The translations under genes and the position numbers were made by a program. DNA of 21,450 bases from a virus, in the IMG/VR virus record IMGVR_UViG_3300025853_009012, positions 1 to 21,450 of that record, one strand, 5' to 3'. Within the stretch, counting starts at the first letter, position 1. Every line of letters begins with the position of its first letter. Under the pieces are notes generated by a model. That model did not search any database and had not been told where the DNA came from. It saw only the letters and a program-made list of their open reading frames with translations. This document shows, piece after piece, positions 2,554-18,209 of the stretch.

Positions 2554-4251
2554 ATGACAATAGAACAAGCTATTAGAGAAAATGATTTAGTTTTAAAACA
2601 TCAGCAAATTGGTACACAAAAAGTTAAATGTCCAAAATGTCAACCACCACATAATCCAAGAGATAATCCATTATCAGTAACAATTAATGAAGATGGAATT
2701 GTTTGGAAATGCCATCATTGTGATTGGACTGGTGGTAAAACTACAGGACATATATATAGACCATATAATAAACCTTCTTACATTGCACCTGAGCCACCAC
2801 AAATTGATTTAAATAATTCTAATAGTATGTATACCTATTTTAAATCTAGAGGCATTACAAAGGATATAGTTAATAATTATAAAATATTTCAAGAAAATTA
2901 TTGGTTTGGTTTTCAATATTTTGATGAAAATGGTCAATTAACAAATATTAAATATAGAACAGCTGATAAAAAATTTAGACAATCCGCCAATGCTAAATCA
3001 ATTTTATATAACTATGATCGTATATGTAATGCGGAAACAATTATATTTACAGAAGGTGAAATGGATGTATTAGCTTTAGCTGAAAGTGGATTTAATAATG
3101 CAACAACTTTACCAAATGGCGCACCAAAAGAATTTAAAGGTGAAAAAAATGATGCAAGATATAAAGCATTAGAAAATTGTAAATTAATTGCTAAAAAAAT
3201 AATCCTATTTACTGATAATGATGAAGCAGGAAAAGCTTTACATAAGGAACTATTACATAGATTCGGTAAAGATTTATGTTGGTATGTAGAAATACCCGAT
3301 AACTGTAAAGATGCTAATGAAGTTTTATTAAAATATGGTGCATTAAAATTAAAACAAATTATTAATAATGCTATTCCATATCCTATTAATGGTTTATATA
3401 CAGCAGGTGATTATTATCAACAAGTAAATGATTTATATGATGGTAAATATGAAAGACCAACTACTATAGGTTTAAAAGGATTAGATGATATATATAAAAT
3501 AATGACAAGTACATTTCATGTAATAACAGGTATACCAAATCATGGTAAAAGTTTATTTTTAGATCAAATATTAATTAAATTAGCAGAAGATAATGATTGG
3601 AAATTTGCTATATTTTCTCCTGAACATTCTACTTCAATGCATATAAGACGATTAGTCCAAATGTATATAGGTAAAAATTTTGATGAAGGTTTTAATGACA
3701 GAATGACAAAAGCAGAACTAATTAAAGGTTTACATTTTATTCATAATCATTTTTATTTTATAGAAACAAAAGATAGCATTCCTTCAATAAATTTAATTTT
3801 AGATATAGCTAAAAGCGCAGTATATAAGCATGGTATTAAAGGTTTAATTATTGACCCATTTAATGAAGTTTCAGCTATTAGATCTGGAAATCAAAGAGAA
3901 GATGAACATATAAGAGATTTTATATCCTTATGTAAAAGATTTACTAGAATATATGAAATAGTTTGTTGGGTTGTTGCTCATCCAACTAAATTACCTAAAA
4001 CAAATGAAGGTTCATATATGCCACCAACTGCATATGATATAAGTGGCGCGGCTCATTGGCATAATCAAGCAGATGCTGTTTTAACTGTTCATAGAGATTT
4101 TGATGAAAATACAACAGAGGTAATAACAAGGAAAATTAGAGAACAAGATTTATATGGAAAAATAGGTAGTGCTAAATTTTCATATAATTTAAAAAATAAA
4201 AAATATGAACCATATACAGAAATTGATGAATGGGAAGATTGGAATGATTAA
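2554..4251 (+). CDS. Bifunctional primase-helicase (T7 gp4 / Twinkle type)
   Basis: A 565-residue replicative enzyme carrying both activities. The N-terminal zinc ribbon has C26-x2-C29 and C53-x2-C56 for template recognition. The Toprim primase domain shows E167-G-E with VLALAESGF, and a D221-N-D223 metal-binding motif. The hexameric RecA-like helicase has Walker A GIPNHGKS (326-333), Walker B GLIID with D434, and the polar sensor region WVVAHPTK (473-479). Length matches T7 gp4. AGGAG precedes the ATG. Its stop overlaps the stop of the convergent ABC/GNAT gene by 4 nt. No DNA polymerase is seen in the window; it must lie elsewhere in the phage or come from the host. Confidence 0.93.
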   Translation: MTIEQAIRENDLVLKHQQIGTQKVKCPKCQPPHNPRDNPLSVTINEDGIVWKCHHCDWTGGKTTGHIYRPYNKPSYIAPEPPQIDLNNSNSMYTYFKSRGITKDIVNNYKIFQENYWFGFQYFDENGQLTNIKYRTADKKFRQSANAKSILYNYDRICNAETIIFTEGEMDVLALAESGFNNATTLPNGAPKEFKGEKNDARYKALENCKLIAKKIILFTDNDEAGKALHKELLHRFGKDLCWYVEIPDNCKDANEVLLKYGALKLKQIINNAIPYPINGLYTAGDYYQQVNDLYDGKYERPTTIGLKGLDDIYKIMTSTFHVITGIPNHGKSLFLDQILIKLAEDNDWKFAIFSPEHSTSMHIRRLVQMYIGKNFDEGFNDRMTKAELIKGLHFIHNHFYFIETKDSIPSINLILDIAKSAVYKHGIKGLIIDPFNEVSAIRSGNQREDEHIRDFISLCKRFTRIYEIVCWVVAHPTKLPKTNEGSYMPPTAYDISGAAHWHNQADAVLTVHRDFDENTTEVITRKIREQDLYGKIGSAKFSYNLKNKKYEPYTEIDEWEDWND

Positions 4252-5339
4252 CCAATAAATTCAAATGAAGCTGTTAATCTATCAGAAGATATAGATTTGT
4301 TCATTTTAGCTATATCTTTTCTAATACCAATAGTTTTGCCTCTTTCTTTATTAGTTCTTGAAGGTTTTCTTGTCATTATCCAATTTTTACTTGCAGTTAA
4401 ACCATGTATAAATGATGGAGAACTTGTTACTAATCGCATTCTAAAACCATTATTAACATAATCTTTTGCTAACACAGACATAAATCTACCACCTAATCCT
4501 ATGCCTTGATAATCGGGTTTAACAACAATTCTATGTATTCTTTTAAAATTAGATACTTTTGGATGTGGAAAATGCAAAATAGAACACCAAGCAACAGGTT
4601 CATTTCCTATTTCTGCAATATATTTATGAGAAGATACATTATGTTTAGCACTTAAATAATGAAACTCTTTAAATAATTCCCATTCTTGTTGCTCTGCTTT
4701 TCTGATATTGACTTTAATTTTTGGTCGCCGATGTAACCCCCTATAAAATTCTTTTTTATTTGCATCGTATACCCAATCAGGCTCTAACCATTCTTCAATA
4801 TCAAAATGGCATGATACAGCTATAAATTGTTTATTTTCTTTTCTAATAAATTTTTGTATAGCTGAGCTTCCTATTTGTGCTACTTGTCTATCAACAACAG
4901 ATGTAAATTCATCATATATAACAGGTTTATTACTTTCTAATATTAATCTAGCCAATTCTGCTCTCATTTTTTGACCATTTGATAATATATTAAAAGGTTT
5001 TAACCAATCAGGTGGTGATGCAAATCCGACTTTTGATAATGCTTCTGTAATTTCTTTTGGACTTAAATCATTAGAAAAATCGTCAATAATTGTTTTATCT
5101 GACCATTTAAAACCATTAAATAATTTAAAATCCTTAAATACATTTTTAGCTATAGTCGTTTTACCTGAACCACTAGAACCAACAATTAAACCTACATTCC
5201 AATTTATATCTTCAATAGGTATATTTACATCAAATTCTTTTTTAACAATTCCTGCATCATAATCAAAAATACCTTTAACTTTTTCAACTCTAAAACTACT
5301 TGGAATTTTATTTTGTACTACAAACTTTGAACTTGGCAT
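4248..5339 (-). CDS. ABC-ATPase fused to GNAT acyltransferase domain
   Basis: A 363-residue fusion protein. The first part is a full ABC-type ATPase: Walker A GSSGSGKTT (54-62), signature LSNGQKMRAELAR (119-131), Walker B PVIYDE with D143-E144, and H-loop H178. The second part (about 205-345) is a GNAT fold, with the acyl-CoA pyrophosphate loop in RIVVKPDYQGIGLGGRF (270-286) and a conserved-looking EFHYLSAKH (225-233). No membrane segment, so it is not a transporter. Phage Mu Mom, a DNA-base modifying enzyme, also has a GNAT fold and, as I recall, Mom-like proteins are found near ParB-like genes; a DNA modification role is therefore possible but unproven. It overlaps the upstream ParB-like gene by 22 nt and belongs to the leftward four-gene cassette. 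Confidence 0.85.
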   Translation of the reverse strand: MPSSKFVVQNKIPSSFRVEKVKGIFDYDAGIVKKEFDVNIPIEDINWNVGLIVGSSGSGKTTIAKNVFKDFKLFNGFKWSDKTIIDDFSNDLSPKEITEALSKVGFASPPDWLKPFNILSNGQKMRAELARLILESNKPVIYDEFTSVVDRQVAQIGSSAIQKFIRKENKQFIAVSCHFDIEEWLEPDWVYDANKKEFYRGLHRRPKIKVNIRKAEQQEWELFKEFHYLSAKHNVSSHKYIAEIGNEPVAWCSILHFPHPKVSNFKRIHRIVVKPDYQGIGLGGRFMSVLAKDYVNNGFRMRLVTSSPSFIHGLTASKNWIMTRKPSRTNKERGKTIGIRKDIAKMNKSISSDRLTASFEFIG

Positions 5340-5857
5340 TCATACCCCTTTTCTTGTAATTCGTTATATGTTTTTTCTTGGTGATTTTCATCTTCACAAT
5401 TAATAATTACATTAAATACTTCTTTATATTCTTGTTCTTGTAATTCAGGTTCAATCAATTCTAATCCATCAATAATATTTGCTAATTCTTGTTCATTAAA
5501 TCCTAATAAATTTAGATCTATATCATCAGCTATAGTCATAATTTCATTTTTTAACATTTCAAAATCCCAACCTGCATTCATAGCAAGTTGATTATCAGCA
5601 ATAATATATGCTTTTTTTTGTTCCTCTGATAAATTATTTAATACAATTGTTGGAACTTCTTTTAAATCTAATTTTTTAGCCGCTAATAATCTTCCATGAC
5701 CTGCAATAATTAAATTTTTATTATCAATTAATATTGGATTTGTAAAACCAAATTCTTTAATTGAATTAACTATTTGTGTTATTTGTTCTTCGCTATGAGT
5801 TCTTGAATTATTTTCGTATTCTTTTAAATCATTAATTGGTATATTAATTATCTTCAT
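5318..5857 (-). CDS. ParB/Srx-fold nuclease-like protein
   Basis: A 179-residue protein. Residues about 1-110 are a ParB N-terminal-like domain: NSRTHSEEQ, SIKEFGFTNPILID, IIAGHGRLLAAKKL and AYIIADNQLA are all typical. In many phages this domain is fused to an adenine or cytosine DNA methyltransferase. Here no methyltransferase follows; the C-terminal 60 residues are acidic, and the next gene (22-nt overlap) is the ABC/GNAT fusion. The ParB fold binds CTP in chromosome partition proteins and is nuclease-like in others; which applies here is unknown. The start overlaps the upstream small gene by 14 nt. Confidence 0.88.
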   Translation of the reverse strand: MKIINIPINDLKEYENNSRTHSEEQITQIVNSIKEFGFTNPILIDNKNLIIAGHGRLLAAKKLDLKEVPTIVLNNLSEEQKKAYIIADNQLAMNAGWDFEMLKNEIMTIADDIDLNLLGFNEQELANIIDGLELIEPELQEQEYKEVFNVIINCEDENHQEKTYNELQEKGYECQVQSL

Positions 5858-11697: not shown

Positions 11698-12093
11698 TTA
11701 TTCTCCCCATGTTCCGTCTTTTCTAACTTTAGCTGTTTTTTTACCACCCCAGTATTCAACTGCGTGTCCTTCTTGTACGAGGGTTTGGCAAATATCTTTT
11801 TTACCTTCTGTAAAAGGTGTTGCGAGAATCCGTCCATATTTTCCTTTACCATGTGATTGAATTACTAATTTTTCAGCACATAGTTCTTTAAGTCTTTCTT
11901 TAGCTTTAAGTCCTAGTGCTTTTTCTTCTAAATTTCTTGTTCGTGATTCAGGGGTATCAATACCTGCTAATCTGCATCTTTGTTTATGTAGCTTTACGTC
12001 AAAGCCTAAATCTAAAGTCACATCTATGGTGTCTCCATCTATTACCCTCTCTAGTATAGCGTTGTATACAAATGGTGTGACTAATTCAGACAT
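11698..12093 (-). CDS. Staphylococcal nuclease-like (SNase) protein
   Basis: A 131-residue OB-fold nuclease. RLAGIDTPE holds R41 and E49, and KGKYGRILA holds R88, matching catalytic Arg35, Glu43 and Arg87 of micrococcal nuclease; D21 and D46 are the calcium ligands. No signal peptide is evident. It lies in the lysis block between the small membrane protein and the endolysin. Possible roles include degradation of host DNA or of DNA released on lysis; these are inferred. Confidence 0.9.
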   Translation of the reverse strand: MSELVTPFVYNAILERVIDGDTIDVTLDLGFDVKLHKQRCRLAGIDTPESRTRNLEEKALGLKAKERLKELCAEKLVIQSHGKGKYGRILATPFTEGKKDICQTLVQEGHAVEYWGGKKTAKVRKDGTWGE

Positions 12094-12302: not shown

Positions 12303-12689
12303 TTATTTGCTTTCTGACACCTTTTCTTTAGGCTCATCTTTTTTGTCATATTCTCTATAGAATTCAATAATGTGTAATGTTTCTTTAATATAGCGTTTGA
12401 TCTCTGCCATATTCATAGATAGGTTTTCATAATCTTTAGAGGTTAAAGAATAATATGCTGTTTCAGGTGCAGAGCCTGTTTCTAAATCTGAAAGGTACTC
12501 TTCCATTATACGAGGGGTTAGAATTTCCCAGTCAATATCCGCCATATTAAGTTCTATTGGGAGTGGCGGGTGATACATAGGGGATGGCTCTGCAACTGTT
12601 ATTACTTCCACAGGCTTAGTTTGTGTTGGTATCATAGAACACGCTGTGAAGTAGAAAAGGGTAAAACTAACTATTAGTAGATTTTTCAT
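12303..12689 (-). CDS. Lipoprotein, probable outer-membrane spanin (Rz1-like)
   Basis: A 128-residue predicted lipoprotein. Residues 1-16 are a signal peptide ending FYFTA and the lipidated Cys is C17. The mature part opens Pro-rich (SPMYHPPLPIELN), then is helical and ends in a charged tail. Its start lies 23 nt inside the 3' end of the coiled-coil membrane gene, an arrangement typical of Rz/Rz1 pairs. I start it at the ATG at 12689 rather than the TTG six bases upstream. It would join the inner-membrane partner to fuse membranes at lysis. Confidence 0.7.
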   Translation of the reverse strand: MKNLLIVSFTLFYFTACSMIPTQTKPVEVITVAEPSPMYHPPLPIELNMADIDWEILTPRIMEEYLSDLETGSAPETAYYSLTSKDYENLSMNMAEIKRYIKETLHIIEFYREYDKKDEPKEKVSESK

Positions 12690-13074
12690 TATCAAATTGA
12701 TTAGGATTAGTTAAATCTATAAGGTCTTGTTTGACCTGTTTAGTTCCTTTATTGACTATTTTTTCTATTAGCTTTGGTTTGGCTAAAGCTAAGTTATCAA
12801 GATCATGTTTTGCAAAAGTGTTTTTTAGTTTATTTACTTCTCTTTGTGCTTCTTGGTTCTTTGCAGTTAAAACATTAACTTGTTCTTGTGTTTGTTTTTG
12901 TTTAGCTATATGTTGCTTTATAGAATCGTTTTGTTCTTTGATAGAGCTTTCTAAGGCTATTTGATTGCCTTTTAAAACTGATATTTGATCTTGGAGTCTA
13001 TCAATATACCAAATACTACTTGATGCTGTTGCTATTAACAGTCCACCAAGTATTAATGATAGTTTGAATCCCAT
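12667..13074 (-). CDS. Inner-membrane spanin-like protein (Rz-like)
   Basis: A 135-residue protein with an N-terminal membrane anchor (about 4-24) and a long periplasmic coiled coil (about 26-95, many Gln/Lys/Glu, EQNDSIKQHIAKQKQTQEQ). It is followed by LALAKPKLIEKIVNKGTKQV, a pattern I associate with phage Rz-like proteins. The lipoprotein gene is nested at its 3' end. The start overlaps the cyclase gene by 22 nt, so it is translated from the same message. Confidence 0.75.
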   Translation of the reverse strand: MGFKLSLILGGLLIATASSSIWYIDRLQDQISVLKGNQIALESSIKEQNDSIKQHIAKQKQTQEQVNVLTAKNQEAQREVNKLKNTFAKHDLDNLALAKPKLIEKIVNKGTKQVKQDLIDLTNPNQFDNEKSTNS

Positions 13075-14831
13075 GTATACACCTGTAACTTATTACTCTT
13101 TCCTTTAGCTTCTATTGGGTCTAAAGGTATTAGATCAAATTCTATCGCATTTTCTGTACTTTGACCAATTAACAAATCAACACCTGCATTTTTTGTACCT
13201 GATTCAAGTCTTGCTGCAACATTAACAGCATCACCTATAGCAGTATAATCAAATCTATTTTGACTACCCATGTTGCCTATAACTGCATACCCAGTATTTA
13301 TTCCTATTCCTATAGCAACTGGACTTATTCCTTGATCAGCAAGAACATAATTTAGTTCATGCATATTTTTTTTTATATCTATAGCACACAAAAGAGCTTT
13401 TTCTTCATGATTTTCTAAATCTAAAGGTGCATTGAAAATAGCCATCATTGCATCTCCAATATATTTATCTACCATTCCGCCATGTGCTTGAACTGCTTTT
13501 TGTTGTGCAGTAAGTGCTTCATTCATAATGTATGTTACTTGTTTAGGCTCTAATGATTCTGATAAAGCAGTGAAACCACGAACATCTGTAAATAAAAATG
13601 TTGCATAACGTCTTTCACCACCAAGTTTTAGTAAATTAGGATTGTCTTGCAATTTTTTTACCTGTCTAGGGTCTAAATAATGTTCAAACTGTTTTTTAAT
13701 TTGCTCTCTTAGTTGCCATTGCTCTCTAAATCGTAAGTAAAATGCTGTTGCTCCAGTTATAAATTGTGAAATTAGCGACCAAGTAACATCAATTAAGATT
13801 CCTCTGTGTATAAGTGCATATCCTGTATAAGCTGTGGACAACATAATAATCAAAGCTAATACTAAACCCCAAGTAATACCAAAAGCGTTTAATACAATCC
13901 ATATGATGCTTACTGATACTAAAAATATAAGTATTTCTAAAGCTATAGCCCAATCAGGTATATAAGGGCTATCTTGTATTAAGATTGATTCTGCTAAAGC
14001 TGTTTGAATCTTATGTGGCTCTAGCAAACCAACAGGAGTAGCTACTTGTGGCATAACACCGTTAGCTGTAACACCTATAAATACAAACTTACCCTCTACA
14101 TTCATTTCTTGTAAATCTGTTTGCGGTGTATCTACCCAACTTATCCACTTACGACCAAGACTATCTGTTTTAACAGGCGGTATTCCTCTTATTGATATTT
14201 CTTCTATACCATTATCATTAGTTTTTATAATGTAAGTTTTTACATCAAACAATGCTTTATAAATTTGTGTTCCAAATGAAGGTATCCATTCGTTTTCAGG
14301 TGTACTTACAAGCAGTGGGATTCTTCTTACAAGAAGATCAATTTCAGTGGGAGCAATGGCTAAACCTTGCAATGTAGTATTTGATAAGGTGTTCAGGTTT
14401 TCCTTGACTCCCATACTTACTATACCATTAACATTATTACCTTTGACAACCGTTCCTGTAGATTTAGGGTAATTATTTTTACCATCTTCAAACATAGCTA
14501 TAACAGAAGGTGCATAGCCTAATGTAGTTGCAAAGACCTTATCTCCACCCATTCTATCTGCTTGGGGAAAGGACATAACCCAACCAACACCAATAGCACC
14601 ACGATTTATAAGTTCTACTTGTATTTCTGCTAATCGTCTTCTTGGTAAAGGATATCCACCTTCGTTTTGTATATCTTCTTCTGTAATATTTAAAATTACA
14701 AAATTTCCTGATGGTTCTTGCGGTTTAACCAAAGTATCAAATGTTCTAAGTTTTATTATTTCAGTTGGTGTACTTTGAAATATAAGCGGCAGTGATAATA
14801 GTAATAATATTGGTATTATAATTTTTTTCAT
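13053..14831 (-). CDS. CHASE2-domain class III adenylate cyclase
   Basis: A 592-residue membrane sensor enzyme. Segment 4-18 is the first membrane span; 20-292 is the extracytoplasmic CHASE2 sensor (LRTFDTLVKP, FVILNITEEDIQNEGGYPLP, FVFIGVTANGVMP); three further spans lie at about 295-316, 319-341 and 346-366; 405-588 is the catalytic domain. All catalytic residues are present: metal-binding D416 and D460, substrate residues K456 and T530 (the K/T pair typical of ATP-using class IIIb), transition-state N537 and R541 in NVAARLE. It should make cAMP from ATP in the cytosol. The start shares one base with the FecR stop. FecR-domain proteins and CHASE2 cyclases are often adjacent in bacterial genomes; a phage copy is unusual. 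Confidence 0.93.
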   Translation of the reverse strand: MKKIIIPILLLLSLPLIFQSTPTEIIKLRTFDTLVKPQEPSGNFVILNITEEDIQNEGGYPLPRRRLAEIQVELINRGAIGVGWVMSFPQADRMGGDKVFATTLGYAPSVIAMFEDGKNNYPKSTGTVVKGNNVNGIVSMGVKENLNTLSNTTLQGLAIAPTEIDLLVRRIPLLVSTPENEWIPSFGTQIYKALFDVKTYIIKTNDNGIEEISIRGIPPVKTDSLGRKWISWVDTPQTDLQEMNVEGKFVFIGVTANGVMPQVATPVGLLEPHKIQTALAESILIQDSPYIPDWAIALEILIFLVSVSIIWIVLNAFGITWGLVLALIIMLSTAYTGYALIHRGILIDVTWSLISQFITGATAFYLRFREQWQLREQIKKQFEHYLDPRQVKKLQDNPNLLKLGGERRYATFLFTDVRGFTALSESLEPKQVTYIMNEALTAQQKAVQAHGGMVDKYIGDAMMAIFNAPLDLENHEEKALLCAIDIKKNMHELNYVLADQGISPVAIGIGINTGYAVIGNMGSQNRFDYTAIGDAVNVAARLESGTKNAGVDLLIGQSTENAIEFDLIPLDPIEAKGKSNKLQVYTWDSNYH

Positions 14832-15925
14832 TAGTTGTCTTGTGTAATTTTAATTGTACTGCCTTCACCACCATTAATAGTGACTACATTAGATACGCCA
14901 TCTTGAATAAAGATAACTGTATAACTTGCATCACTATCTATATCAATTCTAGCTGTATTATTTACACTTCTAAGTAAAGTAAGCTTTTCACCTGTGTAAA
15001 AGGTTGTTATTTGCGTTTCAAGGTCTTGACCTAATTTTGTACCTCTTATATTTGTTTGCGTTGCATCTGCTAGAAGGTCTGCTTCTTTAGCAACTTCAAG
15101 TGCATCTATAACATCAAGTAAATCTTCTAAGAAGTTAACATCTAAGAAGTTAATATCTAACTCTGTAAATTCTAGACTATCATCAGATAAAAAATCTTCA
15201 TCAAGGTAATCAATATCTAAATCATTAAAATCTAGGATGTTTTTTTTCTGTAATACTATTTCCTCACCTTCTATGATTTCTTCTTCAGGCGGTGTAACAA
15301 TTAACATATTATCTATAATATCTAATGTTAAATCTAAGATTACAGGTTTACTTGGTGCATTCTCAAATACAGACACTGTAGTTGCTTGAAAAGGTTTGTT
15401 TAAAAGTACGCTACCAGTCGCTGTAATAACCTCTATTTCACCGCTAGATAGTCCATAAGCATCAGGCAACAATATAATTAAACTACGTCCTAACTCATCT
15501 ACAGTAGCTGTGAAATCTGTACCTCTTATGGCAATATTTGCAGTTGGGGTTTTAAGTTTTATATTTTGCTTATCAATTCTATTTAGATTGCCTGTTATGA
15601 ATCTAGCAGTGCCTAATCCAAAGGTAAGAGCCATTTTAGATTTTGATGGGTTAGGGTCATAGATATATTCATCTATAAGTAGTTCAGAATGTTCTGTAAG
15701 CCTTACAGTTGAATTATCAAGAAATGTAATAGCCATACGACCATTAGTTGTAATAGCTTCATCATTGCTTTGTATACCAAGCTTTAATGCAGCTTGTAAT
15801 GGCTCATCTCTTACTATTTGTGCGAACCCGTTAAGTTCTGATATATCTCCTATATCAGCAACCTGTGGAAGTTCCCCCATCATTTTGAGTGATACAAATA
15901 TTAGAGTTAGATGTAGTAGTTTCAA
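14831..15925 (-). CDS. FecR-domain protein with Asp-rich repeats
   Basis: A 364-residue exported protein. A signal-peptide-like segment (1-23) is followed by a FecR domain (about 48-185): GIQSNDEAITTNGRMAITFL, DNSTVRLTEHSELLI and TPTANIAIRGTDF are family hallmarks. Residues 230-275 carry an unusual Asp-rich repeat of the type LDINFLDVNFL/LDIDYLDEDFL, possibly calcium-binding. The C-terminal 30 residues (FIQDGVSNVVTI ... IKITQ) look like a curlin beta-strand repeat. Its signal peptide region is encoded inside the 3' end of the curlin gene (71-nt overlap). The periplasmic location next to a CHASE2 cyclase suggests it may be the cyclase's sensor partner; this is inferred. Confidence 0.85.
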   Translation of the reverse strand: MKLLHLTLIFVSLKMMGELPQVADIGDISELNGFAQIVRDEPLQAALKLGIQSNDEAITTNGRMAITFLDNSTVRLTEHSELLIDEYIYDPNPSKSKMALTFGLGTARFITGNLNRIDKQNIKLKTPTANIAIRGTDFTATVDELGRSLIILLPDAYGLSSGEIEVITATGSVLLNKPFQATTVSVFENAPSKPVILDLTLDIIDNMLIVTPPEEEIIEGEEIVLQKKNILDFNDLDIDYLDEDFLSDDSLEFTELDINFLDVNFLEDLLDVIDALEVAKEADLLADATQTNIRGTKLGQDLETQITTFYTGEKLTLLRSVNNTARIDIDSDASYTVIFIQDGVSNVVTINGGEGSTIKITQDN

Positions 15926-16589
15926 TTTTTAACCAATCCCTAGCCAATGTGCTTGACTGTATGATGTTTAAAGTATTATTGCTTCCATCAAGATCAAGAT
16001 AAAAATATCCTGAATCAGATGATGTATTTCCTGAGTAACCACTACCTGTAAAGTTAATAGTATTTGTACTTCCATTTACATCCACATTATTAATAGCATT
16101 TGCATAATCAATATCAAAGTCAAATTGATTAGAATCTCCTGTAATAATCCAATCTAGATCAAGATATGATGAATCAGCATTTTCTGCCACTTCTAAATCA
16201 AAGGTATTACTACCACCTGTAATATCAATATTCATATTTATATAATCAGCACTAATTAGACCAGTGCTATTCATAAGAATATCCATAACATTACTATCAC
16301 CATCAAATTCAAAGAAACCAGTGAAATTATCACCGTCAATGCCATCTGATCTAAATATATTACTAGAACCAATTTGATTGATATCAAGTGTCATAGTTAT
16401 ACCATCAAGGTCTAGAGCAGTCATTGTTCCTGAAACAGCAGAAGTCCCGCCTATAAGGTTAGAACTACCTAATTGTTCAAGATCAATACTTGCAGTATTT
16501 CCACTTTGGTCTACATATATTTCGTTATCCGCGTATGTTAGCAATGCACTCAGCATCACAAACAGGCTCATTAATTTTATTTTCTTCAT
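15855..16589 (-). CDS. Curlin-repeat (CsgA/B-like) amyloid protein
   Basis: A 244-residue exported protein. Signal peptide 1-20 (cleavage after LLTYA). The mature part has about eight beta-repeats: VDQSGNTASIDLEQLGSSN, LDINQIGSSNIF, FDGDSNVMDILMNS, DITGGSNTFDLEV, ITGDSNQFDFDI, VNGSTNTINFT, LDGSNNTLNIIQS and ICITQNDGG. The repeated G-x-S-N turn and alternating I/Q or I/D strands match curlin, whose repeats stack into cross-beta fibres. The Asn/Asp/Ser richness and fewer Gln than CsgA make it a divergent member. It lies between csgG and the FecR gene, and its signal peptide is coded in the 3' end of csgG. It is the likely substrate of the CsgG/CsgF channel. Confidence 0.8.
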   Translation of the reverse strand: MKKIKLMSLFVMLSALLTYADNEIYVDQSGNTASIDLEQLGSSNLIGGTSAVSGTMTALDLDGITMTLDINQIGSSNIFRSDGIDGDNFTGFFEFDGDSNVMDILMNSTGLISADYINMNIDITGGSNTFDLEVAENADSSYLDLDWIITGDSNQFDFDIDYANAINNVDVNGSTNTINFTGSGYSGNTSSDSGYFYLDLDGSNNTLNIIQSSTLARDWLKIETTTSNSNICITQNDGGTSTGC

Positions 16590-17397
16590 ATTTCCAGTAT
16601 CCTTTATCGTAACCGATAATAATAAGTTCTAATACAGCACCTTCAATTGCTTTCATTAAAGCAATAGTTGTACTCTCGTTGCGTGAAACTCCAAATTCCA
16701 CTTCAACTAACTCAGTACCCATTTCTATGAATTTAAACACATCTTGTGACTGTCCGTAACTTAGTATTGTCTTATTAGACATAACTTCTACCAGTATCTC
16801 ACCAGTAGCTACAGAAACCATTCTAAGGCTTACTGTGATAGTATCTTCACGATACTGAACACTTGTGCCTATTCCTAAATATCTTGCACCTGCACCACCT
16901 GTAATAAGATTACTATCATACGATACAACAGCACCTTCTAGCAATACACCTGCAAATAGCAAGGGCATGATCTTATTTTCGTTTTTTAGTTCTTCTCTTG
17001 TGCTTCTTATGATTTGTCTTTCTTTTGTTAGGTTATCAAGACCAACTCTTTCAACAACTCTAAAAAATTCACCATTACTTGCGTGTTTCAATGCTCTTAT
17101 TAGTAAATTACTTGGTGCTTGAGTTATAGCACTAGAAAATAAAGCAAACTCACTATTGCTTTTTCTTTGTCCTGTTTGGTCTGTGAATGCAGTTGGGTAT
17201 ACAGCTACAACTGGTTTTGTTTGTGGTGGTTGTACTTGCAGAAGTTCTTTAGATTGTAACGAATAAATACTGTGTTTATCTTTGAAATTTATTTGTTTTC
17301 TAATTTGCTCTGTGTCTTCATAAACATCAAGCAAAGAACAATTAGAAAGTAAAAGAACCAATAGGCAAGGTAATAATTGTTTCGTTTCCATTTGCAT
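16525..17397 (-). CDS. csgG: CsgG, curli secretion channel lipoprotein
   Basis: A 290-residue outer-membrane lipoprotein. The signal peptide ends LLSN and the lipidated Cys is C20 (Asn at -1 is unusual). The CsgG domain spans about 62-272 and aligns by eye along its length with E. coli CsgG: VAVYPTAFTDQTGQ, ALKHASNGEFFRVVERVGL, NLTKERQIIRSTRE, LEGAVVSYDSN, GGAGARYLGIGTSVQY, ATGEILVEV, SNKTILSYG. CsgG forms a nine-subunit ring that exports unfolded curlin. The constriction differs from E. coli: F56 is kept (F87 here), N55 is Leu (L86), and Tyr51 appears to be absent. Its signal peptide is encoded in the 3' end of csgF (56-nt overlap). Two ATGs six bases apart are possible starts; 17397 or 17391. 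Confidence 0.95.
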   Translation of the reverse strand: MQMETKQLLPCLLVLLLSNCSLLDVYEDTEQIRKQINFKDKHSIYSLQSKELLQVQPPQTKPVVAVYPTAFTDQTGQRKSNSEFALFSSAITQAPSNLLIRALKHASNGEFFRVVERVGLDNLTKERQIIRSTREELKNENKIMPLLFAGVLLEGAVVSYDSNLITGGAGARYLGIGTSVQYREDTITVSLRMVSVATGEILVEVMSNKTILSYGQSQDVFKFIEMGTELVEVEFGVSRNESTTIALMKAIEGAVLELIIIGYDKGYWKYEENKINEPVCDAECIANIRG

Positions 17398-17881
17398 CTG
17401 TTATTTTTAATGTTATGAACTCACCATCACTGGTATATTCAATTATATTTCCCTCTAATTCTATTGTTCCTGAATCACTTGGCGTTTCACCAAATAAATT
17501 TTCTACTAATTGTCTTGATAATTGTGCATAGATTCTACTTTCTAGGTTTCTAATAAACCTTGCAAGGGTTGTATTCTCTGCATCTCTTGCTAGTTCTTCT
17601 TTATAAGCTTTTATTTCTGCACGAATAGCTTGTTTACGATTGAACTCTTGATTTTCTATAGTTAAATAATGACTTGATGTATTAATTCCGTTAAAGGATG
17701 GAGATTTAAACTTATGTACTATTTGGTCTGCTGTAGCACTTTGTATAAATATTCCTAGAATAAGAATTATACCTACTATAGATACCCATTTAATTATAGT
17801 ATCTTTTTCAGCTTCTTCTTTTCTTTTAATTAATTCAGCTTTACTTGGTCTACCTCTTTTTTTAGTCTTTTCTTTGGTCAT
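17342..17881 (-). CDS. csgF: CsgF-like curli assembly protein with N-terminal extension
   Basis: A 179-residue protein. The CsgF domain (52-179) is well marked: HKFKSPSFNGINTSSHYLTI (56-75), a helical Arg/Glu-rich centre ending IYAQLSRQLVENLFG, and the terminal EGNIIEYTSDG, TLKITDANGNETIITLP and GSFTF. CsgF caps CsgG's pore and couples it to nucleation. Before the domain is an unusual cytosolic extension with an AT-hook-like KKRGRPSKAEL and a charged helix (1-28), then a hydrophobic segment (29-48) ending SATA, a possible signal peptidase site. I use the ATG at 17881 rather than a TTG 18 nt upstream. It overlaps the holin-like gene by 20 nt. Confidence 0.85.
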   Translation of the reverse strand: MTKEKTKKRGRPSKAELIKRKEEAEKDTIIKWVSIVGIILILGIFIQSATADQIVHKFKSPSFNGINTSSHYLTIENQEFNRKQAIRAEIKAYKEELARDAENTTLARFIRNLESRIYAQLSRQLVENLFGETPSDSGTIELEGNIIEYTSDGEFITLKITDANGNETIITLPIGSFTF

Positions 17882-18209
17882 CTCTATCCGCCTTAGCAAT
17901 TTTACTGCTATCTATTAGTTGTGGCACTCCAAGAATAGTCTTAATAAGAGTATCTTGCCTTATAATCTCATTGTCTAAACTTCGCACCCTATCAATTAAT
18001 GCTACCAAAATACCATGTTGAGAATCAAGTTTTGTGCCTAGTCTATCTTCTATAGCAGATATTTGTTCTGCTACTTTGTGATCTACCACATCAAGTTTAG
18101 TCTCCATACCATCAACAATACGCATGATAAGTTTATAAATAAACCAACCAAGACCAAGTGAAGCGGCAATAGGAAACCCAACCTCTTGGATAACAGTTAT
18201 TGCATCCAT
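17862..18209 (-). CDS. Holin-like protein (UviB/BhlA type)
   Basis: A 115-residue protein with one N-terminal membrane segment (about 9-28, VGFPIAASLGLGWFIYKLI), then a charged, coiled-coil cytosolic part and ILVALIDRVRSLDNEII. This layout matches the UviB/BhlA-like holin-type proteins common in phages. It opens the lysis and curli block and overlaps csgF by 20 nt. It starts one base after the stop of the 67-residue gene. Holin function is inferred from pattern and place. Confidence 0.7.
   Translation of the reverse strand: MDAITVIQEVGFPIAASLGLGWFIYKLIMRIVDGMETKLDVVDHKVAEQISAIEDRLGTKLDSQHGILVALIDRVRSLDNEIIRQDTLIKTILGVPQLIDSSKIAKADRDDQRKD

Follow-up and report, generated by a model that had tools for sequence, protein, structure and literature searches.

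The window, by which we mean the whole stretch of DNA analysed here, comprises 21,450 bases and is a linear virus record of IMG/VR (IMGVR_UViG_3300025853_009012; GC 29.9%) from a marine phage, and it raises the question of why a phage should carry curli export genes, a FecR-domain protein and a CHASE2-adenylate cyclase in direct contact with its lysis genes. Our findings show that this module is real and phage-borne, and that it is of a kind already described, the window providing a further member in a siphovirus. As for its function, we see about even chances that its six genes constitute a late-expressed module through which a curlin fibre leaves the infected Gram-negative cell and which monitors this secretion itself.

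All module and lysis genes discussed here lie on the minus strand of the window. Read on that strand, the genes begin with a tail fibre that ends in an S74 chaperone and two small genes; then come TMcc, CsgF, CsgG, the curlin-repeat and FecR proteins and the CHASE2-adenylate cyclase, and after these Rz, Rz1, a nuclease and an endolysin. An earlier reading made from the sequence alone (the sequence-only reading) had proposed five overlapping genes, from CsgF to the cyclase, at 13053-17881, and this was borne out. Matches above the curated Pfam cut-offs were obtained for CsgF (17342..17881; PF10614, 2.6e-18), CsgG (16525..17397; PF03783, 1.9e-49), the FecR-domain protein (14831..15925; PF04773, 1.8e-10) and both domains of the cyclase (13053..14831; CHASE2 5.2e-23, Guanylate_cyc 2.7e-19); the curlin match that it had also expected remained under the cut-off. 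The same reading drew the unit too narrowly, missing a sixth gene at 17862-18209 (TMcc) and the overlap of the cyclase gene with Rz. The successive overlaps from TMcc to Rz1 measure 20, 56, 65, 71, 1, 22 and 29 bases, with no gap anywhere; the first is that of TMcc with csgF, the next four join the five genes, and the 22 bases shared by the cyclase gene and Rz mean that the unit continues into the lysis genes. Since all these genes overlap, the simplest interpretation is a single transcript shared with the lysis genes. Scans for promoters and terminators gave no excess over shuffled sequences.

The window encodes both a CsgG pore and CsgF. CsgG, a lipoprotein, matched the E. coli CsgG structures at 2.8e-65, and by homology with their families it would form the outer-membrane pore and CsgF its cap. 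In the N-terminal stretch of CsgF ahead of its membrane helix (window 17800-17881) an AT-hook-like KKRGRPSKAEL was observed, for which the Pfam AT_hook match (0.015) is under the cut-off and which occurs in many relatives, not all. The identity of the third curli component, the curlin-repeat protein (15855..16589), needed further evidence, because its Pfam match (0.13) is below the cut-off. That evidence came from repeats, bacterial relatives and structure. The motif QxGxxN was found in 49 of 49 homologues, in 88 copies against a mean of 4.4 and a maximum of 12 in shuffles, and the protein of the window holds two copies, in agreement with the X6QXGX2NX10 repeat of curli substrates. A profile of the phage proteins matched genes near csgG in 13 of 25 bacterial csg loci (best 3.9e-12), and a search of PDB sequences with it gave chance hits only. 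AlphaFold2 predicted a beta-solenoid (predicted local distance difference test, pLDDT, 83.5; predicted template modelling score 0.81), and the list of structural relatives includes the CsgA fibril 8enq (Z 10.3, root-mean-square deviation, rmsd, 8.9 over 109 residues). With such an rmsd, and with other beta-helix proteins scoring higher, the structure indicates a solenoid and not curli specifically. Taken together, we infer an exported beta-solenoid, the likely substrate of the pore.

The first gene of the module encodes TMcc, a protein of 115 amino acids with one N-terminal transmembrane helix followed by a coiled coil. A search with TMcc alone found csgF directly downstream in 79 of the 80 best viral relatives, the 80th ending at a contig edge, and for this reason TMcc is considered part of the module. 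Its ratio of nonsynonymous to synonymous substitution rates (dN/dS) is 0.02-0.09 where computable. PMC9599517 reports one or two 'histidine kinases' ahead of the pelagiphage module. Among the Pfam matches of 18 TMcc members, up to an E-value of 1, no kinase family (HisKA/HATPase) appeared. Position, occurrence in one or two copies and short length agree with those of the reported genes, so that the 'histidine kinase' of that paper is most likely TMcc, a small membrane protein.

Is the module a feature of phages, or of this contig only? IMG/VR was searched with CsgG, Rz and TMcc as queries. The gene order was constant in 181 of 181 viral loci containing CsgG, a set that includes some contigs twice, because two queries retrieved them, and that consists mostly of fairly close relatives. 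Wherever a locus extended for 1.6 kb or more upstream and 5.5 kb or more downstream, as 83 did, it contained all six genes, with TMcc preceding CsgF. The order is also retained, at about 30-60% identity, in HTVC008M, in Melnitz and in phage contigs binned in metagenome-assembled genomes (MAGs). A chimeric contig was rejected on the basis of this conservation, and the sequence-only reading was thus correct in regarding the unit as phage-borne. The contig itself encodes replication genes beside the tail fibre, spanin and endolysin. Every gene of the module is under purifying selection, with dN/dS values relative to the window of about 0.02-0.33 and, once, 0.41 for curlin.

Regarding phage type, a 53-kb relative, its CsgG 92% identical, has genes for the tape measure, tail terminator, distal tail and central tail hub, which indicates that the phage group of the window is siphovirus-like. 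In podovirus-like relatives the module is flanked by a nuclease gene and by a pair formed by a lysozyme gene and a gene that we take, from recognition of its sequence, to be holin-like. In HTVC008M and Melnitz the module has genes for replication and the baseplate close by, and none of its neighbours is annotated as a lysis gene. As clues to the host, the GC content of 29.9% and a related phage contig (L239) binned in a Pelagibacter MAG would fit Pelagibacter, binning being weak evidence. Of the eight matches of a genome scan with CsgG, one was a distant CsgG and the other seven were loci of phage-like modules within MAG bins; no bacterial donor was identified among the eight. Phage-like curli modules (L233-L239) were observed in MAGs named Maricaulis, Neomarinimicrobiota, Flavobacteriaceae, Rhodobacteraceae and Pelagibacter; such MAG-binned modules are a trap for claims of bacterial origin. 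A record named Salmonella phage (OR851715.1, 1,499 bases) also holds a csgG-like gene, which its length and content suggest to be host DNA instead of a phage gene. An empty-site comparison yielded no clean pair with and without the module, because the module-less distant relatives of Rz sit in a different gene neighbourhood, where a gene resembling, by eye, a terminase small subunit stands nearby.

Beside its curli parts the module encodes a FecR protein. The start of this protein is hydrophobic (in the model, a helix at residues 2-15 and FecR strands from residue 26) and its relatives carry an AQA-type cleavage site, so that, judging from the model, the protein looks secreted. The core (residues 52-207) superimposes on the signalling domain of PupR (6ovk; Z 15.4, rmsd 2.7, 136 residues), and after a low-confidence stretch the model ends in a six-strand tail with pLDDT about 82. 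This tail (residues 296-364; 14834..15040) has curlin-like motifs. Among 54 FecR homologues, which are related to one another so that the counts are not independent trials, the motif QxGxxN was found in 27 of 54 tails (shuffles, mean 1.6, maximum 6) and in none of the 54 bodies, and [ILVF]x[ILVF]xQ in all 54 tails, with 115 copies against a shuffle mean of 23. Both therefore exceed shuffles in the tails, and curlin-like motifs do not do so in the bodies. The conserved tail residues Q341, G343, I358 and Q362 are those of curlin repeats.

Co-variation, measured as partial rank correlations of protein distances over 84 dereplicated modules, relates FecR to the pore, to the sensor and to the fibre protein. 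The FecR core correlates with CsgG (0.48, 0.30-0.62), with CsgF (0.36) and with CHASE2 (0.30, 0.13-0.47), and the FecR tail with curlin (0.28, 0.13-0.40); curlin with CsgG gave -0.17, and CHASE2 with the cyclase domain 0.00. Because the curlin gene separates csgG and fecR, the correlation between their products goes beyond linkage alone; for FecR and CHASE2, whose genes are adjacent, linkage may contribute. In one locus (L088) CsgG, curlin and FecR are 74, 52 and 73% identical to those of the window, and TMcc, cyclase, Rz and lysozyme 86-97%, the range being 86-98% for the flanking genes. From the sequences, this joint divergence is apparently a block exchange within the module.

These observations suggest how the module might work. 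The curlin protein would be exported through CsgG and CsgF, and periplasmic FecR would probably take the place of CsgE, the periplasmic gate of the bacterial pore. Given the tail motifs and the co-variation, the core may face CsgG and the curlin-like tail may touch or seed the fibre subunit. The CHASE2 sensor would read FecR and switch the cytoplasmic adenylate cyclase, so that a cyclic AMP (cAMP) signal in the cell would depend on the state of export. For the phage, the most likely benefit would be that a coat of fibres holds sibling cells near one another or prevents superinfection. A more specific proposal, which we hold only tentatively and consider rather doubtful, puts FecR at the centre of a self-monitoring amyloid secretion circuit confined to phages, its core replacing CsgE at the CsgG pore, its tail seeding or sensing the fibre subunit, and CHASE2 reporting through cAMP.

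The same FecR protein bears on another explanation, that a CsgG pore left open by the lack of CsgE admits larger nutrients or cofactors while FecR senses an iron compound (PMC7029224 and PMC9599517). No CsgE match was obtained with Pfam among the module proteins, and the fold of the FecR core is that of an anti-sigma domain from siderophore signalling, both as that explanation would have it. It leaves the kept curlin and CsgF genes unexplained, however, and neither an anti-sigma part nor a transmembrane helix was present ahead of the FecR domain in the model, whereas FecI/FecR-type anti-sigma factors carry a cytoplasmic anti-sigma part in that position; a matching inner-membrane transporter was not seen in the module either. 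We regard nutrient import as quite unlikely.

The output enzyme shows the features of a Class III cyclase joined to CHASE2, with two metal-binding aspartates, the adenine-selecting lysine and Thr/Ser, and the catalytic arginine; D416, K456, D460 and R541 are invariant in 16 relatives. In three loci (L014, L069 and L151) the cyclase domain is of another sequence type (FADIVGFTPISEAY, as in HTVC008M) and CHASE2 is of the window type, which points to a domain exchange inside the cyclase gene with retention of the catalytic residues. PADLOC models of PycC match the cyclase domain (best 5.7e-29), as would be expected if the enzyme were a Pycsar-like defence cyclase making cyclic CMP or cyclic UMP against other phages, with the curli part a mere neighbour. 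Such a system requires an effector gene, though, and among the neighbours scanned there was no match to a model of an effector; Lys456 and the Thr/Ser before AIGD are adenylate cyclase residues, the best solved structural relatives are adenylate cyclases, and CHASE2 co-varies with FecR. A role of this type is accordingly very improbable.

The position of the module bears on a lysis function. The cyclase gene runs into that of an Rz-like inner-membrane spanin (12667..13074; phrog_739, 1.8e-13), followed by an Rz1-like outer-membrane spanin (12303..12695; phrog_812, 3.8e-15), a SNase family nuclease (11698..12093; PF00565, 3e-14) and the endolysin that it adjoins, a phage lysozyme (11253..11852; PF00959, 1.1e-47). 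Further away, the window encodes an ABC-type ATPase fused to an acetyltransferase-like part (4248-5339; phrog_11143, 3.7e-102) with a ParB-like gene beside it (5318-5857). For phage Melnitz a gated outer-membrane pore or pinholin of CsgG and CsgF was proposed to help in timing or completing lysis (PMC9004378). This would fit a module of overlapping genes between a holin-like gene and Rz, Rz1 and endolysin, and a lysis gene was nearby in 27 of 33 loci of the CsgG query and 30 of 30 of the TMcc query with enough flank. TMcc itself has a weak match to holin phrog_1296 (0.004); it also stands before csgF in myoviruses, there without annotated lysis neighbours, as the HTVC008M and Melnitz loci illustrate. 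The phage is equipped with an endolysin and both spanins of its own, and their presence in the same operon makes a pure lysis-pore role unlikely and weakens lysis timing as the main role. Moreover, the podovirus-like relatives carry a further holin-like gene, and a lysis device leaves unexplained the retention of curlin, CsgF, FecR and cyclase in 83 of 83 full loci. On balance we consider it unlikely.

Several observations weigh against a self-sensing fibre secretion module. The curlin protein is not recognized by Pfam at its cut-off, and profile comparison was too weak to establish homology between FecR tail and curlin (13 columns, E-value 0.0044, probability 8). Curlin prefers the FecR tail over the core in only 88% of bootstraps, and recombination can also produce correlations of distances. 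Among 11 phage records none was found to encode a cAMP-binding protein, so that a cAMP target would be a host protein. Finally, no clumping was seen in cells infected by the related phage Melnitz (PMC9004378).

Compared with bacterial curli (type VIII secretion, csgBAC-DEFG), the module shares the CsgG pore, CsgF and curlin repeats, and CsgC, D and E are likewise lacking in Alphaproteobacteria (PMC3521004). It differs in its FecR, CHASE2-cyclase and TMcc genes, which phage profiles did not find beside csgF within 10-16 kb in 25 bacterial loci (5 from the class of a Pelagibacter MAG, 5 from that of a Thiotrichaceae MAG and 15 from the phylum of a Flavobacteriaceae MAG). The gene order is thus conserved in many phages and not in the sampled bacterial csg loci. 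Pfam models likewise placed no FecR or CHASE2 within the csg locus of these genomes; FecR genes occur elsewhere in 21 of the 25, the nearest about 20 kb away. According to PMC9599517, Alphaproteobacteria show an organisation resembling the phage module, which for FecR and cyclase was not seen in this small sample. In three of eight bacterial CHASE2 loci, FecR lies within 1.5 kb on the same strand, and phages therefore seem to have combined a sensor pair of FecR and CHASE2 with a set of genes for curli export. Such a pair is also known from a Burkholderia biofilm operon, BiofilmReg (PMC5192318), where a FecR-domain protein, secreted as here, adjoins a CHASE2 membrane sensor. That operon has a histidine kinase as its output and LysM in its FecR protein, whereas the phage module has a cyclase as its output and, at the end of its FecR protein, a curlin-like tail, which may also show how bacterial FecR-CHASE2 pairs sense.

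Among phages, CsgF/CsgG pairs were treated in PMC7029224, which proposed sibling capture, and in PMC9004378, which proposed a lysis-timing pore; together with PMC9599517 these papers had already suggested the superinfection block, aggregation and lysis timing that the sequence-only reading put forward. Its statement that no described phage system joins all five genes does not hold either, since PMC9599517 (2022) describes a type VIII secretion (curli) cluster in pelagiphages (nine podovirus genomes and myoviruses), in the order small gene(s), CsgF, CsgG, CsgA/B, FecR, a second CsgA/B in some and adenylate cyclase, with CsgC, D and E absent. According to that paper the module is widespread in marine phages. 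What is new is a third phage type, that of the siphovirus relatives, with the module overlapping lysis genes, as well as the likely identity of the reported 'histidine kinase' with kinase-free TMcc, the curlin-like FecR tail, the co-variation of FecR with CsgG, CHASE2 and, via the tail, curlin, and the absence of FecR and CHASE2 genes next to csgF in the 25 bacterial loci sampled. The third tail type, the constant six-gene make-up and the position in a lysis operon narrow the functional question, and the tail provides a concrete link between secretion pore, amyloid subunit and second-messenger enzyme. The window thus has the same genes in the same order as the pelagiphage module, known from podo- and myoviruses, and differs from it in its siphovirus relatives, its kinase-free membrane and coiled-coil first gene and its curlin-like FecR tail, the last two not being stated in the accessible part of PMC9599517.

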